From positions 248,001-312,000 of the forward strand of contig NW_002476246.1 in the NCBI RefSeq assembly GCF_000189635.1: a stretch of 64,000 bases of DNA. The letters run 5' to 3'. Both the position numbers and the translations under genes were made by a program. Positions 6,236-15,782 of the stretch are shown here, piece by piece. The first letter of the stretch is position 1. Every line of letters begins with the position of its first letter. The notes under the pieces are model-generated. The model made no database searches and was not told the DNA's origin. It saw only the letters and a program-made list of their open reading frames with translations. The stretch comes from Tetrahymena thermophila SB210 (Eukaryota; Ciliophora; Oligohymenophorea; Hymenostomatida; Tetrahymenidae).

Positions 6236-7346
6236 TGCTAAAAATTATTTAAATTAATAAATTTAATTTAATTATTCCAATTTAAAAAATAGAAGAAAAA
6301 AAAAAGTTGAATTTCATTCTAAAACACATTAACAGCAAAAAACCTTCTAAATTTATACTGTGGTTTTCTCGTAGTAAATGAGATTATTATTATTATTGCC
6401 ATCCTCTAATAATTATTTCTCTAGTAGGAAATTTAAAGAAAATATAAAATAATAAAAAAAGGTACCTAAAAATTCTGCTTCGAACCTAAAAAAATCAAAA
6501 AAAGTCTTATTCGGTAGATCACTAATAAATATGATGATTTCTTAAATATGTATTGAATATATTTTAATAAATATGAATATTTATTTACCTTTTTAATAGA
6601 TTAAAACAAACATAAAAATATAACATTTTAAAATTGAACTATACCAATTGAAAATATTTTATTAACATATGACAGAAAACCCATTAATTTGATTATTATT
6701 ATTATTATTTTATATATATAATTTTTAATAGAAATATTGATTTAATAATTAATGGTACACTGACATTTGTTTTTATGATTTTTTTTTTAATTTATAAATT
6801 TGTATCTTGTTTATTTTTTTTTTTATCTAAATTAATTTCATATTAAAAGTTAATTAATTTATTAATATCCTAATAATTAATTTATTAATTAAATTCCATA
6901 AATTAGTTTTCAATATTTTTGAAAAAAAATAAATGATATCAAAAAAAAAATATTTTTACAGCACTTAAGAAGTAATAATATTTATTTGTTTATAAATAAC
7001 ATTTAAATTATTTTTATTAATAAAATAAGTTTTTAAACTCTTCAATTTAATCTTTTTAGGATATCCATTTAGTTCTGAAGTATATTTAATTTATTAATAT
7101 TAATGTTTATTTATTTAAATTTAATTTTCATCTAATTTGTAATATTATTTTTCTAATTTAAATTATCATCTAAAAAATAAATTCAATTATATTATAGCAA
7201 ATTAATAAATAAATATTTCTAATTATTTTAACTTAAAAATTTTCTTAAATGATTATTATTATTTATTTTTATATTTCCTATTTTTTCTTCCTTTTTCCTT
7301 CTAACTATTTAATTAACTGTATGTTTTTTATTCAATATTTAAGAAG
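6236..7346. other. Spacer upstream of the LRR array; unresolved 5' exon(s)
   Basis: About 1.1 kb of AT-rich DNA precedes the first recognisable LRR exon, so the start codon of that gene should lie here. A 104-codon frame (ATG 6378, TGA 6690-6692, beginning MRLLLLLPSSNN) is a candidate first exon, but it has no convincing splice to the array. The segment around 7060-7080 after cttttta could be a tiny exon. I cannot decide between these. Confidence 0.3.
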
Positions 7347-9552
7347 TTCAATTAAAATTGGTGCTCATGGTGCTTAAAGATTAGGTTCTGGTTTAGGAAA
7401 GTGCACTAATCTCTCAAATTTGACACTTTATCTTTAGTAAAAACAGTTTTTTTGTTTTGGATTATGATATTTTTGAATATGAATTTAAAATAATATAACT
7501 TAATAAATATTTTAATTAATTTATTTTAGATTTTTATTTCATTTATTTATCTTTTTTTTATTTATTTCTTTATTTCTTTATTTGTTAATTTAAATTATTT
7601 TTTCATATTTTTTCTTCATATTTTCTTTCAAACTAATTAATTAAATATTTTTTCTTTAATATTTAAAAAGATTTAATATTATTGGTCAAACTGGTGCATC
7701 AGGATTAGGTTCTGGTTTAGGAAATTGCACTAATCTCTCAAATTTGACACTTGATCTTGAGTAAAAAGAGTTTATTTGTTTGTTTGATTTGAGTTTTGAT
7801 ATTTTTTAATATAAAAATTAATTTAAAACAATAAAACAAATACTTTTAATTTAACTATTAGATTTTTATTTGATTTATTTTTCTTTTTTTTATTTGTTTG
7901 TTTTTCAGTTTGTTAATTTAAGTCATTTTTTATTTTCAACTTTTAATTTTATTGCTGGTCCTATAATAAAATATCATATAATTTTTATGATTTTAAGCTA
8001 ATTTTACTCTTTCTATTTTTTCAATTTTTTTATCAATTTTATTCAATTTTCTTTTTTTTATTCTACTAGTGCTTTTTAATTTAGTTATTTCATTATATAT
8101 TTGATAATTTAACTAACTAAATTTTCAACTTTTGCTTTTATATTAATTAATTAATTTCTTTATTATTATCTATAATTTTCTTCATTTTTTTCATTATAAC
8201 TAAAAAATTAACATTATATTTATTTTTCAATATTTAAAAAGAAATAATGAATATGTTAAAGAAGGTACAATTTGTGATAAAGGAGCATCAGACTTAGGTT
8301 CTGGTTTAGGAAAGTGCACTAATCTCTCAAATTTAACACTTCATCTTTCGTAAAAACAGTTTTTTTGTTTTAGATTGCTATATTTTTGAATACTAAAAAA
8401 ATTTAAAACAATTTAACTAATACTTTACTTTTAATTTATTTATTAGATTTTTATTTCATTTATTTTTCTTATTTTTTTATTCTGCTTGTGTTATTTATTT
8501 ATTTATTTTTTTTAGTTAATTTAAATCATTTTTTCATTTTGAAATTTTAATTTTATTTTTAGTTCATTTTTTATTATTACATATTTTTTCCTTCTATTTA
8601 ACTAATTAATTGTATAATTTTTCTTCTATATTTAACAAGTAATAATTTAATTGGTGCAATTGGTGCATTAGGCTTAGGTACTGGTTTAGGAAAGTGCACT
8701 AATCTCTCAAATTTGGCACTTCATCTTGAGTAAATAGAGTTTATTTGTTTTGGATTGTGATTTTTTTAAATATGAAAATAAATTAAAAAAAATAAGACTA
8801 ACACTATTTATTATTTTATTTATTAACTTTTTATTTAATGTTTTTCTTATTTTTTATTATTTTATTTAATGTTTTTCTTATTTTTTATTATTTTATTTAG
8901 TTTTTTTTTAGTTTATTTAATATATTTTTTCATTTTCAGCTTTTGTTTTATTATTAATTTATATCTTATTATTTCATATTTTTCTTCATTTTCTTCTTCT
9001 TTTTAACTAAATAACAATATGTTTTTTTTCATAATATTTAAAAAGTAGAAATTAAATTGGCGATGAAGGTGCATCAGGCTTAGGTTTTGGTTTAAGAAAG
9101 TGCTTTAATCTCTCAAATTTGAAACTTATTCTATTGTAAATTTAGTTTTTTTATGATATTTTTGAATATAAAAATGAATTTAAAACAATATAACTCTTTT
9201 AATTTGTTTTTATATATTTAAATCTTTATTTTTTAATTTTACTCATTTTTTCATAATCAAAATTTGCTTTTATCATAATTAAGTAATTAATTATTTATTT
9301 ATTATTTCATATCTTTTCATCATTTTTTCATTCTTACTAACAAATTAATTAACTATAGTTTTTTCTTCAATATTTAAAAAGTCAAAATAAAATCAATGAT
9401 AAAGGCGCATCTGGGTTAAGTTCTGGTTTACGAAAGTGCACTAATCTCTCAAATTTGAAACTTTATCTTTAGTAAAAACATTTTGTTTGTTCTGGATTAT
9501 TTGTTATATTTTTTTATTTAAAAGTGAATTTAAAACAAAAAAATTAATTCTT

Positions 9553-9595
<43 letters not shown>

Positions 9596-10623
9596 TTAGC
9601 TTTTTATTTGGTTTATTTTTCTTTTTTATTTTGATTGTGTTTTTATTTATTTATTAATTTAATTAATTTTTTAATTTTTAAATTTTCCTTTTATTATTAA
9701 TTAATTTCTTATTACTGCATATTTTTTCTTCATTTACTCCTTCTAACTAACTTAATAACAATATGCTTTTACTTAATATTTAAAAAGAGACAATTTAATT
9801 GGAGATGAAGGTGCATCAAGATTATGTTCTCGTTTAAGAAAGTGCACTAATCTCTCAAATTTGACACTTAAACTTAAGTAAATAAATACAGTTTACTTGT
9901 ATTCGATTAGGATGGATATTTTTTAATATAAAATAAATTTAAAAAAAAACAAAAATAACACTTTTCTTATTTTCCTCATATTTTTATATTTTGTCATATG
10001 TTCGTTTTTTTTTTCAATTAAACTCACTTTTTTAATTTTTTAATTTATTATTAATTAATTAATCAATTCATATCTTATTATTTCATATTTTTTCTTGATT
10101 TTTTCCTTCTAATTAACTAATAACAAGATGTTTTTTCTTCAATATTTAAAAAGTAAGAATTATATTTGTGAGGAAGGTGCATCAAATTTAGGTTCTGGTT
10201 TGGGAAAGTGCACTAATCTCTCAAAATTGACACTTTATCTTGAGTAAAAACACTTTATTTGTTTGTATTAAGATATTTTTGAAAATAAATAATGAATTTA
10301 AAACAATATAACAAACTAACTCTTTAATTTATTTATTTTTTTATTAGCTTTATTTAATTTATATTTCTTATTTTTATTTATTTATTTGTTTATTATTTTA
10401 ATTCATTAATTTTTGCTTTTATTATTAATTAATTAGTTCATTTCTTATTATTTCTTCATTTTTTCCTTCAAACTAACTAATTTACTATAATATTTTCCTT
10501 CAATATTTAAAAAGAGAAAATTAAATTGGTGATTAAGGTACATCAGACTTAGGTTCTGGCTTAGGAAATTGCACTAATCTTTCAAATTTAACACTTGAAC
10601 TTAGGTAAAAATAGTTTGTTTGT

Positions 10624-10658
<35 letters not shown>

Positions 10659-13600
10659 TTTTTGGCTGTGATATTTTTAGCTATCAAAATATATTTTAAA
10701 TGAAATAACTTTTTTAATCTTTTCATTAGCTAGCTTTAATTATTAATATTTATTTGATTAATTATTCTTTTTTTATATTTTGCTTGTATTTCTTTTTATT
10801 TCTTTGTTACTATATTATTTTATCTAATTTTTTTATTTTTAACATTTACTTTTATTATTTATTTATATTTTATTACATTTTTTCCTTTAGCGAACAAGTT
10901 AATTGTTTTTTTCTTCTATATTTAAAAAGTGAAATTGGTGCAATTAGTGCGATTGGTGCATTAGGTTTAGGTAATGGTTTAGCAAAGTGCACTAATCTCT
11001 CAAATTTGGCTCTAATTCTTTAGTAAAAACAGTTTAAAAAAATGATTTAAAAACAACAAAATTAACTACTTTAATTTTTTTATAGCTTTTTATTTAATTT
11101 TTTTATTCTGCTTGTGTTTTTTAAAATTTCTTTGTTTATTTTTAATTCATTTATTTATTTTCAGCTTTTGTCTTATCTTGAATTAATTAATTTATTTATT
11201 TCTTATTATTACATATTTTTTCTTCATCTTATAAATAACTAATTAACTTCAAGTTTTTTCTTCAATATTTAAAAAGTAAAAATTAAATTGGTGATGAAAC
11301 TGCATCATGCTTAGGTTCTAGTTTAGGAAAATGTGTTTAAATCTCAAACTTGACACTTAATCTACAGTAAAAAGAGTTTGTTTATTTAGGATTATGATAT
11401 TTTTGAATATAAAAATAAATTTTTTTTCAATTTATTACCTTTTTTTTATTGTGCTTTGTTTTGTTTTTTATTTATTTATTTATTTGTTAATTTAACTCAT
11501 TGTTTTATTTTCAAGTTTTATTTTTAATTTTCAATTAATTTCTTATAACTTCATATTTTTTCTTTATCTTTTTCCTTCTAACTCTATATATTTTTTCTTT
11601 AATATTTAAAAGCGAAAATTAAATTGGTGTAAGAGGAGCATCTAAATTAGGTAAGGGTTTAAGAAAATGCTCTAATCTCTCAAATTTATCTCTAATTCTT
11701 TCGTAAAAACAGTTTTTTTTGTTTATTTCTGAAAATAAAAATGAATTTAAAATAATATAACTTAGCCTACACTTTTTTAATTTATTTATTATTTTTATTT
11801 GATTTATTTTTTTTTTTTTTTATTCTACTTATCTTTTTTATTTATTTTGTTTTTTTGTTTATTGTTTTAATTGTTTTTTTTTTATTTTCAAATTTTGCTT
11901 TATTAATAATTAATTAGTTTATTTCTTACTTCATTTTTTCCTTCAATTATCAAAATATTTTTTCTTTAATATTTAAAAAGGAGAAATTAATTTGGCGATG
12001 AAGGTGTATCATCTTTAGGTTCTCGTTTAAGAAAGTGCACTAACCTCTCAAATTTGACACTTTATCTTGAGTAAAAAGAGTTTATTTGTTTGGATTGTGA
12101 TTATTTGAATATAAAAATGGTTTTTAAAACAATATAAATAATTCTTTTCATTTATTTATTAGCTTTTATTTGATTTATTTTTCTTTTGTTTATTATGCTA
12201 GTATTATTTTTTTAAAATTTATTTCTTTGTTTGTTTGTAAATTTTATTCATTTTTTTCTTTTTAAAATTATTCTTTTATTCTTAATTGATTAATTCATTT
12301 CTTATTATTTCATTTTTTCCTTCTAACTAACTAATTCTTAACATATTTTTTCTTCAATATTTAAAAAGGTCTAATAAATTTGGTGATGAAGGTGCATCAG
12401 GCTTAGGTTCTGGCTTAGGAAAGTGCCCTAATCTCTCAAATTTGACTCTTTATCTAAGGTTTAAATTATTTATTTATTTGTTTATAAATTTAAATAATTT
12501 TTTCATTTTAGACTTTTACTATAATTATTAATTAATTAATTAAATACCGTCAATCCTCATTAATTTTCACCAACCTCCCCACCCCTACCCCCTACCCCCC
12601 TCACTGTTAAAAATATTAAGATAATATGGTGAAAATTTATGATTGTGAGAATTTATGAGGATTTACGGTAAAATAATTTATTATTATTTCATAATTAACA
12701 ATATATTTTTTCTTCAATATTTAAAAAGTGAAAATTAATTTAGTGGTGAAGGTATATAAGGTTTATGTTCTGGTTTAGGAAAATGCATTAATCTCTAAAA
12801 TTTGACACTTAATCTTGAGTAAAAATGGTTTATTTGTATTGGATTATGATATTTTGAAAATAAAAATGAATTTAAAAAAATATTACTAACTCTTTTGATT
12901 TATTTATTAATTTTTTATTTGATTTATTTTTCTTTTTAGGTTTTTTATTTATTTATTTATTTGTTTTTTAATTGAACCCATTTTTTATTTTAAACTTTTT
13001 CTAAGATGAGCTAATTCATTCATTCATTACTTATTATTTCAAATTACTTCTTCATTTTTTCTTTCTAACTAATAAATTAACTAAATATTTTTTCTTCAAT
13101 ATTTAAAAAGGGAAAATGAAATTGATGATAAAGGTGTATAAGGCTTAGGTTTAGGTTTAGAAAAGTGCAATAATCTCTCAAATTTAACACTTTTTCTTCA
13201 GTAAAAAGAGTTTATTTGCTTTGATTGTGATATTTTTGTATATAAAAACGAATTTATAACAATACAATATAATTCCTTTAAATTATTTATTAGCTTTTTA
13301 TTAGATTTATTTTTTTTTTTATTCTGTTAGCATTTATTATTTATTTATTTTATTATTTCTTTGTTTATTTGTTAATTCAACTCATTTTTCATTCTCAACT
13401 TTTAATTTTATTATTATTTCATATTTTTTTCTTTTTAAAAGGGAAAATTAAATTGGTGTAATTGGCGGATTAAGCTTAGGTTCTGGTTTAGGAAAGTGCA
13501 CTAATCTCTCAAATTTAACACTTTATCTATCGTAAAAAAATTTTATTTGTTTTGGATTGTAATATTTCTGAATATAAAAATGAATTTTAAAAAAATATAA

Positions 13601-14859
13601 CTACTCTTTTAATTTTTTTTTAGCTTTTTATTTGATTTATTTTTCTTTGTTTTATTTAATTTATTTGTTTGTTAATTTATCTCATTTTTTATTTTCAAAT
13701 TTTACTTTTATTATTAATTTAATAATAATTCTTTCATTTCTAATTATTTCATATTTTTTTTCAATTTTTCTTTCTAATCAACTAATTAATTTTATATTTT
13801 TCTTTAATTTTTAAAAGTGGAAATGAAATTGGCGATGAAGGTACATCAGGATTAGGTTCTGGCTTAGGGAAGTGCATTAATCTCTCAAATTTGTATCTTG
13901 ATCTAGGGTAAAACAGTTATTTATTTTGGATTGTGATATTTTTTAATATAAAAATGAATTAAAAAAAACATAATTAACTAACTCTATTAATTAAATTATC
14001 AGCTTTTTATAGGATTTATTTTAATTTTTAATTTATTTTGTAGAGTTTTTTTATTTTTTTCTTTCTTTCTTTCTTTTTTGTAAATTAATTTAACTCATTT
14101 TTTCATTATCAACTATTGTTTTTATTATTAATTAATTTTTTATTATTTCATCATTTTTTCCTTCTAATTAACTAATCAATAAAATATATATTTTTCTTCA
14201 ATAATTAAAAAGTGCAAATAGAATTGGTGATATAGGTGTATAAGGCTTAGGCTCTGGTTTAGGAAAATGCACTAATCTCTCAGATTTAAGCCTTAATCTA
14301 CAGTAAAAATAGTTTATTTATTTTGGATTGTGATATTTTTGAAAATAAAAATCAATTTAAAACAATATAATTGACACTTTTAATTTATTTATTTATTTAT
14401 TAGCTATTTATTAGATTTATTTTTCACTTTTTTATTTTATTATTTCATATTTTTTCATTCTAACTCTATTTATTTTTCTTCAATATTTTTAAAGTATAAA
14501 TTAAATTGGTGATAAAGGTGTATCAGGCTTATGTTTTAGTTTAAGAAAATGTGTTAATCTCTCAAATTTGACCCTTAATTTTTAGTAAAAACAATTTATT
14601 TGTTTTTGATTATGATCCTTTTGAAAATAAAAAGGAATTTAAAACAATATAAATAACTCTTTTAATTAATTAATTAATTTATTAACTATTTAATTATTTG
14701 ACTTATTTTTCTTTTTATTTATTATGCTAAAATTTTAATTATTTATTGATTTAAAATATTATATTAAATTTAAAATTTAATTCTATTTATTTTTTTAGTA
14801 ATTTAAACTAATTTATATTAATAGTAGAAACTAAGTCAACAAATAAAAATATATTTTGA
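7347..14859 (+). CDS. Leucine-rich-repeat protein, one LRR per exon (>=21 exons; 5' end unresolved)
   Basis: Twenty homologous exons encode LRRs of ribonuclease-inhibitor type with consensus N-x-I-G-D-E-G-A-S-G-L-G-S-G-L followed by G-K-C-T-N-L-S-N-L-T-L-x-L. Exon starts are 7347, 7671, 8242, 8640, 9046, 9382, 9788, 10154, 10515, 10930, 11277, 11613, 11981, 12369, 12729, 13111, 13442, 13818, 14213 and 14495. Eighteen are exactly 90 nt; those at 8242 and 10930 are 108 and 93 nt. All begin and end in phase 2, follow a T-rich tract ending AAAAG or similar, and are followed by GTAAAA/GTAAAT (GTTTAA once). None has an in-frame TGA or frameshift, so the reading frame is under selection. A likely terminal exon, 14799-14859, adds about 20 residues and a TGA. 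The product would be a curved LRR solenoid of at least 600 residues, with no visible membrane anchor. Partner and function are unknown. The first exon with ATG is not identified. Confidence 0.82.
9552..9597. repeat. ATTT microsatellite in LRR intron
   Basis: About eleven consecutive ATTT units lie in the intron between the exons at 9382 and 9788. A similar run is at 10622-10663. Shorter versions occur in most introns of the array. Confidence 0.9.
10622..10663. repeat. ATTT microsatellite in LRR intron
   Basis: About ten consecutive TTTA units lie in the intron following the exon at 10515. Confidence 0.9.
12547..12668. mobile_element. TA-flanked inverted-repeat element (MITE-like), copy 1
   Basis: This 122-bp element lies inside an LRR-gene intron. 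Its left end (12547-12570, starting ccgtcaatcctcatt) and the reverse complement of its right end (12645-12668) match at 21 of 24 positions. It is bounded on both sides by TA, the target duplication typical of Tc1/mariner-type elements. It has no coding capacity. The middle carries an unusual C-run tract (C4, C4, C5, C6). It belongs with the 121-bp element at 27309-27429: same flanks, nearly the same length, and related end sequence. Tc1/mariner relationship is inferred from the ends only. Confidence 0.75.
12577..12600 (-). other. Predicted G-quadruplex motif
   Basis: The minus strand reads G6-TA-G5-TA-G4-T-G4, a textbook short-loop quadruplex motif. It sits within the inverted-repeat element in an otherwise extremely AT-rich intron. 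Folding is predicted from sequence only. Confidence 0.7.
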
Positions 14860-15782
14860 AAGAAAAATGCCTTAAATATAAAAGATTAGTTGCATTATAA
14901 ATATAAAAGTGATGAAATAGGATGAATAAATATAAATTTATTTGAATATAGATAAATGCTATTCAAAAATTTAGTGAATTGAGATCACTATTTTTTTTGA
15001 ATGGCTGATTTGTTTGAACATTATTTATTTAAAAATAAATAAATAATTTTATAATAGAATTTAATTAATTAATTAATAATATTTATAATAATTTTAATTT
15101 ATATCAATCTTTATTTATGATTTTTCTATTAAATTTTTAATTAATTTTTGCCTTTTTTAAAAATTTTTCTTCAAAAAAATTTAAAAATTTATTAAAAAAA
15201 AATTATTTTTAAAATTTTCAAAAATAGTAGTAAGCGTTGCCTTCATAAATAAGAAAATAATAATCAAATATTATCATTAGAATAAATATTTTAAAAGAAA
15301 AGTTACAAATTAAAGTTAATCTCATATAAATTTATTTTAATAATTTAAAAAATGTTCTCTGCTGTTAAATTATTTAAAGAAAAAACATTAAAATTTTACA
15401 CGTATAAATATTAGATAACCAATTTAAATTTTGTTTTACTTATTAAACATTTTATATTTTAGGTATTATAACAAAATTTATTTATTTAACTATGAAATTT
15501 ACATAATTTAATTGCCTAATTTTAAAAAAATTAATTTTACAAATATTATATAGTTTCTTGTTGTGTGTTTATTTAAAAACTAATTTTGTAATTTTATATA
15601 ATTTGTAATATACAAAATTTTTTGATTTGTATTTCGTACTCATTTTTATAATTATTTACTTTTTAATTAGAAAAAATGGTAATAAATTTTTTACAAATAT
15701 ATTAACTTAATTAAATGGTTGTTCGGGTGCCTTAATAAAGAACTTAATGACTGTTTGATTAGTTATCTAGCTAGCTATTCTA
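14860..15782. other. Convergent intergenic region
   Basis: About 920 bp lies between the 3' ends of the LRR gene (+) and mannosidase A (-). It is nearly pure A/T with TTAA-type runs. Its right part (from about 15300) resembles the 3' flank of mannosidase B (20700-21128), including a gggtgcctta motif near the stop codon. No gene is seen. Confidence 0.5.

Follow-up and report, generated by a model that had tools for sequence, protein, structure and literature searches.

The window analysed here, the whole 64,000-nt stretch of Tetrahymena thermophila SB210 DNA, contains an LRR gene, predicted to be protein-coding, that very probably belongs to the young group III class of Tetrahymena LRR genes with 90-bp exons; its array lies between 5' and 3' modules common to paralogues with differing unit numbers. 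Both the architecture and the gene class are already described in the accessible text of Xiong et al. 2019 (PMC6564038). The window gene is one well-resolved example, both terminal modules included, of a described, remarkable family; the leads beyond what that accessible text contains are an exon-targeting element and a link to exon skipping, rather than the window gene itself.

The gene model runs from 6933 to 14859 on the forward strand, with 23 exons, 22 GT-AG introns and a predicted product of 656 aa, start and stop intact. The window is AT-rich (22% GC). Under the standard code it holds no ORF of 150 aa, and under code 6, in which TAA and TAG are read as Gln, an open LRR array appears. 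The fold class is plain because Pfam matches LRR_6 on the protein (1.3e-20); the off-family match, PITH, falls under its cut-off. Chains similar in sequence include some titled 'leucine-rich repeat protein' and 'flagellar associated protein'. At the very start of the window, two tandem tRNA-Gly (gcc) genes occupy positions 33-103 and 274-344. The parts of the LRR gene are as follows.

6582..7346, + strand: 5' module common to other LRR genes, 70-75% identity to paralogue 5' ends
6933..6971, + strand: exon 1 (start codon), 39 nt, phase 0 end, MISKKKYFYSTQE; ATG and donor aligned across paralogues
7030..7079, + strand: exon 2, 50 nt, phase 2 end; conserved block among paralogues, joins LRR exon 1 in frame
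7347..7436, + strand: LRR exon 1, 90 nt, phase 2-2
7671..7760, + strand: LRR exon 2, 90 nt, phase 2-2
8242..8349, + strand: LRR exon 3, 108 nt, six additional residues, phase 2-2
8640..8729, + strand: LRR exon 4, 90 nt, phase 2-2
9046..9135, + strand: LRR exon 5, 90 nt, phase 2-2
9382..9471, + strand: LRR exon 6, 90 nt, phase 2-2
9788..9877, + strand: LRR exon 7, 90 nt, phase 2-2
10154..10243, + strand: LRR exon 8, 90 nt, phase 2-2
10515..10604, + strand: LRR exon 9, 90 nt, phase 2-2
10930..11022, + strand: LRR exon 10, 93 nt, phase 2-2
11277..11366, + strand: LRR exon 11, 90 nt, phase 2-2
11613..11702, + strand: LRR exon 12, 90 nt, phase 2-2
11981..12070, + strand: LRR exon 13, 90 nt, phase 2-2
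12369..12458, + strand: LRR exon 14, 90 nt, phase 2-2, unusual donor GTTTAA
12729..12818, + strand: LRR exon 15, 90 nt, phase 2-2
13111..13200, + strand: LRR exon 16, 90 nt, phase 2-2
13442..13531, + strand: LRR exon 17, 90 nt, phase 2-2
13818..13907, + strand: LRR exon 18, 90 nt, phase 2-2
14213..14302, + strand: LRR exon 19, 90 nt, phase 2-2
14495..14584, + strand: LRR exon 20, 90 nt, phase 2-2
14799..14859, + strand: last coding exon, 61 nt, TGA end, YNLNQFILIVETKSTNKNIF; in-frame join

An earlier, sequence-only reading of this DNA had described 20 frame-symmetric exons, and the description is borne out: all 20 are bounded by AG and GT with phase 2 at both ends, and 18 of them measure 90 nt (the others 108 and 93), arranged as uninterrupted series of 2, 6 and 10. 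The intron ends are similar, as that reading had also claimed, with GTAAAA donors in 16/21 cases and TTTAAAAAG acceptors in 13/21; the GTTTAA of LRR exon 14 is the sole array donor other than GTAAA. The 19 introns between LRR exons range from 192 to 481 nt and are distributed over the mod 3 classes 0/1/2 as 6/9/4, i.e., they are not frame-bound. The codon cut by the array introns falls in what we take to be the LxLxxN strand of the LRR, and each repeat is therefore completed by the following exon. The proposal of exactly one LRR per exon is thus accurate as to length but not as to boundaries, the intron interrupting a codon within the strand motif. The intron that separates LRR exons 14 and 15 holds a MITE-like inverted repeat (12545-12670) with 26-nt arms that are 88% complementary; this repeat has at least 51 genome matches (best 40 of 62 candidates scored).

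The gene had been placed at 7347..14859, a range that is correct at its end, where the TGA exon lies (14799-14859), and falls short at its start, the ATG exon being located upstream (6933-6971). Alignment of the upstream region of the window with ten paralogue loci shows the ATG and the donor in 11/11 rows, together with a second conserved block. Searches of the genome DNA (101 Mb, 445 contigs) with the 5' and 3' pieces return at least 43 and at least 40 matches, respectively, own copy counted (40 candidates scored each); the ten aligned loci constitute the firm 5' cases, because array introns, which resemble the query, may account for some of the 5' matches. The block 14760-14900, which holds the last exon, has at least 39 other genome matches (best 40 of 209 candidates scored). 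The left limit of the 5' module (6582) is set by a single locus, L018, with the other loci beginning later.

According to the accessible text of Xiong et al. (PMC6564038), the Tetrahymena LRR class comprises tens of thousands of exactly-90-bp exons with >96% phase 2 introns, and T. thermophila genes hold 1 to 51 such exons each, with six conserved leucines. Introns of the youngest group are ∼257 bp long (group III peak), against a 56-bp background. The class is further characterised by nucleotide-level repetition, recognised by masking with published consensus repeats, and by a pericentromeric or subtelomeric position in the micronucleus. The same text reports that frames are intact, that many of these genes are expressed and that Ka/Ks is < 1 (for young LRR genes, a between-species median of about 0.4), and describes most species-specific genes as silent or very low during axenic growth.

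Selection was assessed in the window and 12 further 10-kb stretches of the same genome, which together yield 191 units, 177 of them exactly 90 nt; counts of TGA, pN/pS and nearest relatives use these 177 only. The exon finder takes the AG and GT nearest the 90-nt expectation, which inflates the proportion of 90-nt exons. Of the 14 units with another length, 11 are divisible by 3; the other three are errors of the finder, which misplaced the start of window LRR exon 3 (88 nt instead of 108) and of two exons broken by an element (89 and 91 nt), and all three stand as non-90 among the 191. Gaps between successive units number 178, including a few that separate genes or contain an element; their median is 269.5 nt and their length classes are 60/67/51, and this spread over three classes indicates that the frame constraint acts on the exons only.

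Within the spliced window array, TGA is absent in frame and occurs 30 and 11 times in the two alternative frames. Each of the 18 exons with a length of 90 nt differs from their consensus at 11-22 positions, yet none carries an in-frame TGA; simulation of neutral mutation in these 18 exons under two base spectra predicts 3.4 or 4.6 (P(0) = 0.027 and 0.009, respectively). Across the 177 exons of the 13 stretches, the in-frame count is again 0, whereas the alternative frames contain 241 and 125. Leucine occupies six codon positions in 154-168 of the 177 exons, and the remaining positions vary freely. The proposed dN/dS check did not give clear selection (pooled value 0.85 for the 18 exons, pN < pS in 92/153 pairs), and pN/pS over the 177 exons does not distinguish the correct frame (0.93) from the wrong ones (0.97 and 0.91). 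Selection keeping the frame open is supported. The claim that frame preservation reflects selection on the protein thus stands for the open frame, but dN/dS among the exons is uninformative.

Unit number varies among paralogues. The 11 loci with both modules carry 8, 9, 9, 9, 10, 13, 13, 14, 15, 17 and 20 units. These counts exclude two of the 13 loci (L030, 7 units and no 3' module match within its 10 kb; L036, weak 3' match) and, at L035, L036 and L039, the units past the first 3' module match, which are included in the 191; units too diverged for the profile escape counting. Allowing up to 2 mismatches, the 24-nt exon core occurs 3,738 times in the genome. Where acceptor-like TTTAAAAAG accompanies an exact core, 95 of the 100 places listed (of 103) show 90-bp exon spacing, and the five deviants (-9, -3, +3, -12, +3) are all in frame; the window's own exons account for 3 of those 100, including one deviant (+3).

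At the window locus, exon pairs have a mean identity of 0.77-0.80 at every lag from 1 to 10, and the best pair reaches 88.5%. Since no pair exceeds this value and identity is flat with lag, the locus shows no sign of a recent unit gain, and recent array growth was rejected for it. The suggestion that unequal recombination produces a range of solenoids finds support in paralogues with similar ends and 8-20 units, but not in recent events at the window locus. For 30% of exons the nearest relative belongs to the same stretch, versus 8% with shuffled labels, so free shuffling between genes does not explain everything. The own-stretch excess also shows duplication within genes, and the position of most nearest relatives in other stretches fits exchange between genes. 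At L029, the paralogue with the 5' piece most similar to that of the window among the matches listed, the neighbouring units 12 and 13 differ at 4/90 nt, a recent unit duplication.

These data bear on several alternative views of the locus. The array could be a decaying pseudogene, its frame intact only through recent copying, and the dN/dS of about 0.85, the transposon-like insertion in one intron and the atypical donor at LRR exon 14 would agree with this. We consider it highly improbable: start, stop and all 22 GT-AG introns are intact, the 18 exons have accumulated 11-22 differences per 90 nt with no TGA, and the absence of in-frame TGA from 177 exons in 13 stretches led to its rejection, though dN/dS is indecisive. 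Ongoing unequal recombination might also cause unit number at the window locus to differ between strains. Paralogues with similar ends and 8-20 units, and close neighbouring exons at another locus such as L029, are in line with such variation, which nevertheless appears unlikely here given the best pair of 88.5% and the flat identity over lags 1-10.

Combinatorial exon skipping, yielding a range of LRR solenoids from one locus, is a further alternative, and a very unlikely one. Its premise of frame-neutral skipping is sound, as TGA is created at 0/210 possible forward skip junctions among exons 2-23, and donors and acceptors are mostly alike. In the accessible text of PMC3274533, 139 cassette-exon events are reported for T. 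thermophila, with a mean intron of 279 bp, the longest of four splicing classes, and units of the 90-bp class are spaced similarly (median 269.5). T. thermophila is also the sole non-animal surveyed whose skipped exons show an animal-like 3n bias (p = 2.18e-5), as given in the accessible text of PMC6142364. Exon symmetry, however, cannot argue for programmed skipping, because duplication of one phase-2-flanked exon must yield symmetry to be readable; the symmetry already follows from duplication. Moreover, the accessible text of PMC3274533 counts cassette exons as 139 of 1,474 splicing events, regards intron definition as prevalent and attributes premature stops to 25-33% of events in each type. 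Short reads over similar exons can imitate skipping. The word 'leucine' is absent from the accessible texts of PMC3274533 and PMC6142364, and among the matches listed no literature tying 90-bp LRR exons to exon skipping was found. We infer that LRR arrays may lie behind both the 279-bp cassette introns and the 3n bias of T. thermophila, either because exons are truly skipped or because similar exons are mis-mapped. LRR arrays would thereby give a concrete, checkable reason for the outlier in the published exon-skipping survey, so far as its accessible text describes it (PMC6142364).

Beyond the window, two paralogue LRR exons are interrupted by one common GC-rich sequence. A genome search with its 38-nt head motif (up to 3 mismatches) finds 42 copies, all exact, including the two discovery copies and two on C50 that look like one duplicated stretch; this SINE-like element was not found in the window. 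The copies are located as follows.

Loci L046-L065 and L070-L091: SINE-like element copies, head motif and LRR exon junction

The LRR core follows in 42/42 copies (up to 8/24 mismatches allowed), and in 42/42 the exon resumes -1 to 6 nt from one fixed place, the spread being a short T run. Longer flanks cover 20 loci: in 15 of these the beginning of the exon is present on the opposite side of the element, followed by a short tandem repeat; in the remaining 5 the pattern did not pick up this exon part, and one of them, L058, has a half-exon with a different tail. The target lies around AAATTGGTGAT inside LRR exons, with a duplication of about 11 nt, and variants of it private to L046, L057, L062 and L064 recur on both sides, which identifies a target site duplication. 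Arithmetic from the flank data gives a usual copy of ∼400-480 bp. The element head contains GGTTCGAATCC, a B-box-like motif. A tRNA identity for the head was rejected (ARAGORN none in the 4 loci tried, Rfam none for L046 only, fold z 0.37), and the term 'SINE' is used by inference, because the head has a B-box-like motif and no tRNA call. In the window gene, the length-variant exons 8242-8349 and 10930-11022 have, by eye, their extra codons where the element inserts in relatives; the extra codons of LRR exons 3 and 10 could be insertion scars.

The 42/42 junctions suggest that the frame-neutral exon family may serve as a landing site for a site-specific retroelement. In the accessible text of PMC6564038, the Tt.REP and Tm.REP non-LTR retrotransposons co-localise with LRR units, introns are called favoured targets and a 54-bp tail is mentioned; 'sine', 'target site', 'site-specific' and 'insertion site' do not occur in that text. 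A fixed exonic site for the SINE-like element was not found in print among the matches listed, the REP side being the accessible PMC6564038 text. Tentatively, then, the symmetric 90-nt LRR exons may form a genome-wide safe harbour, in which a SINE-like element, presumably with a REP-type LINE partner, hits one target, the broken exon is skippable and skipping of such exons, broken or whole, explains the 3n bias of T. thermophila; as a whole, we consider this unlikely. Symmetric exons could make element insertion tolerable, each hit costing one repeat and not a gene, because an interrupted exon could be omitted without frame loss. Omission of the broken exon from the mRNA would leave the frame intact, and the element would then be annotated as intronic; this, if true, would reconcile the exonic site with the intron-target statement in the accessible text of PMC6564038. 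Thousands of frame-neutral exons would likewise be a quarry for new solenoids.

For the window gene itself, the most likely reading is that it encodes one solenoid protein at full length, and that the array grows or shrinks across generations. An ancestral exon with phase-2 introns on both flanks would have supplied the unit, one exon plus one phase-2 intron, that was multiplied in the germline nucleus by unequal crossing over or conversion, every gain or loss staying readable because both flanks are in one phase. Purifying selection would preserve the leucine framework and purge frameshifts and TGA. The default product would be a single full-length LRR solenoid of 20 repeats, and diversity would arise mainly over generations and between loci, less by splicing.

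Dscam-type combinatorial arrays consist of a single gene with many similar frame-compatible exons. The window gene shares such exons with them but, in its sequence, shows no mutually exclusive clusters, and all its exons are open in one product. The paralogue element resembles Tt.REP and Tm.REP, as these appear in the accessible text of PMC6564038, in that it is a retroelement linked to exon/intron units of the 90-bp LRR class; it differs from them, by description only, in its length of ∼400-480 bp, its SINE-like character and its fixed intra-exon site. As group III is described in the accessible text of PMC6564038, the window gene shares with it tandem 90-bp exons (at least three consecutive), phase 2 introns, six leucine positions (seen over 177 exons), a variable exon number and membership of a very large family. 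Its array introns (192-481 nt) are nearer the 257-bp group III peak than the 56-bp background, and the 269.5-nt median gap over the 13 stretches is likewise close to that published peak. Two of the 20 window units have other lengths, and nothing material separates the window gene from group III as the accessible text of PMC6564038 presents it.
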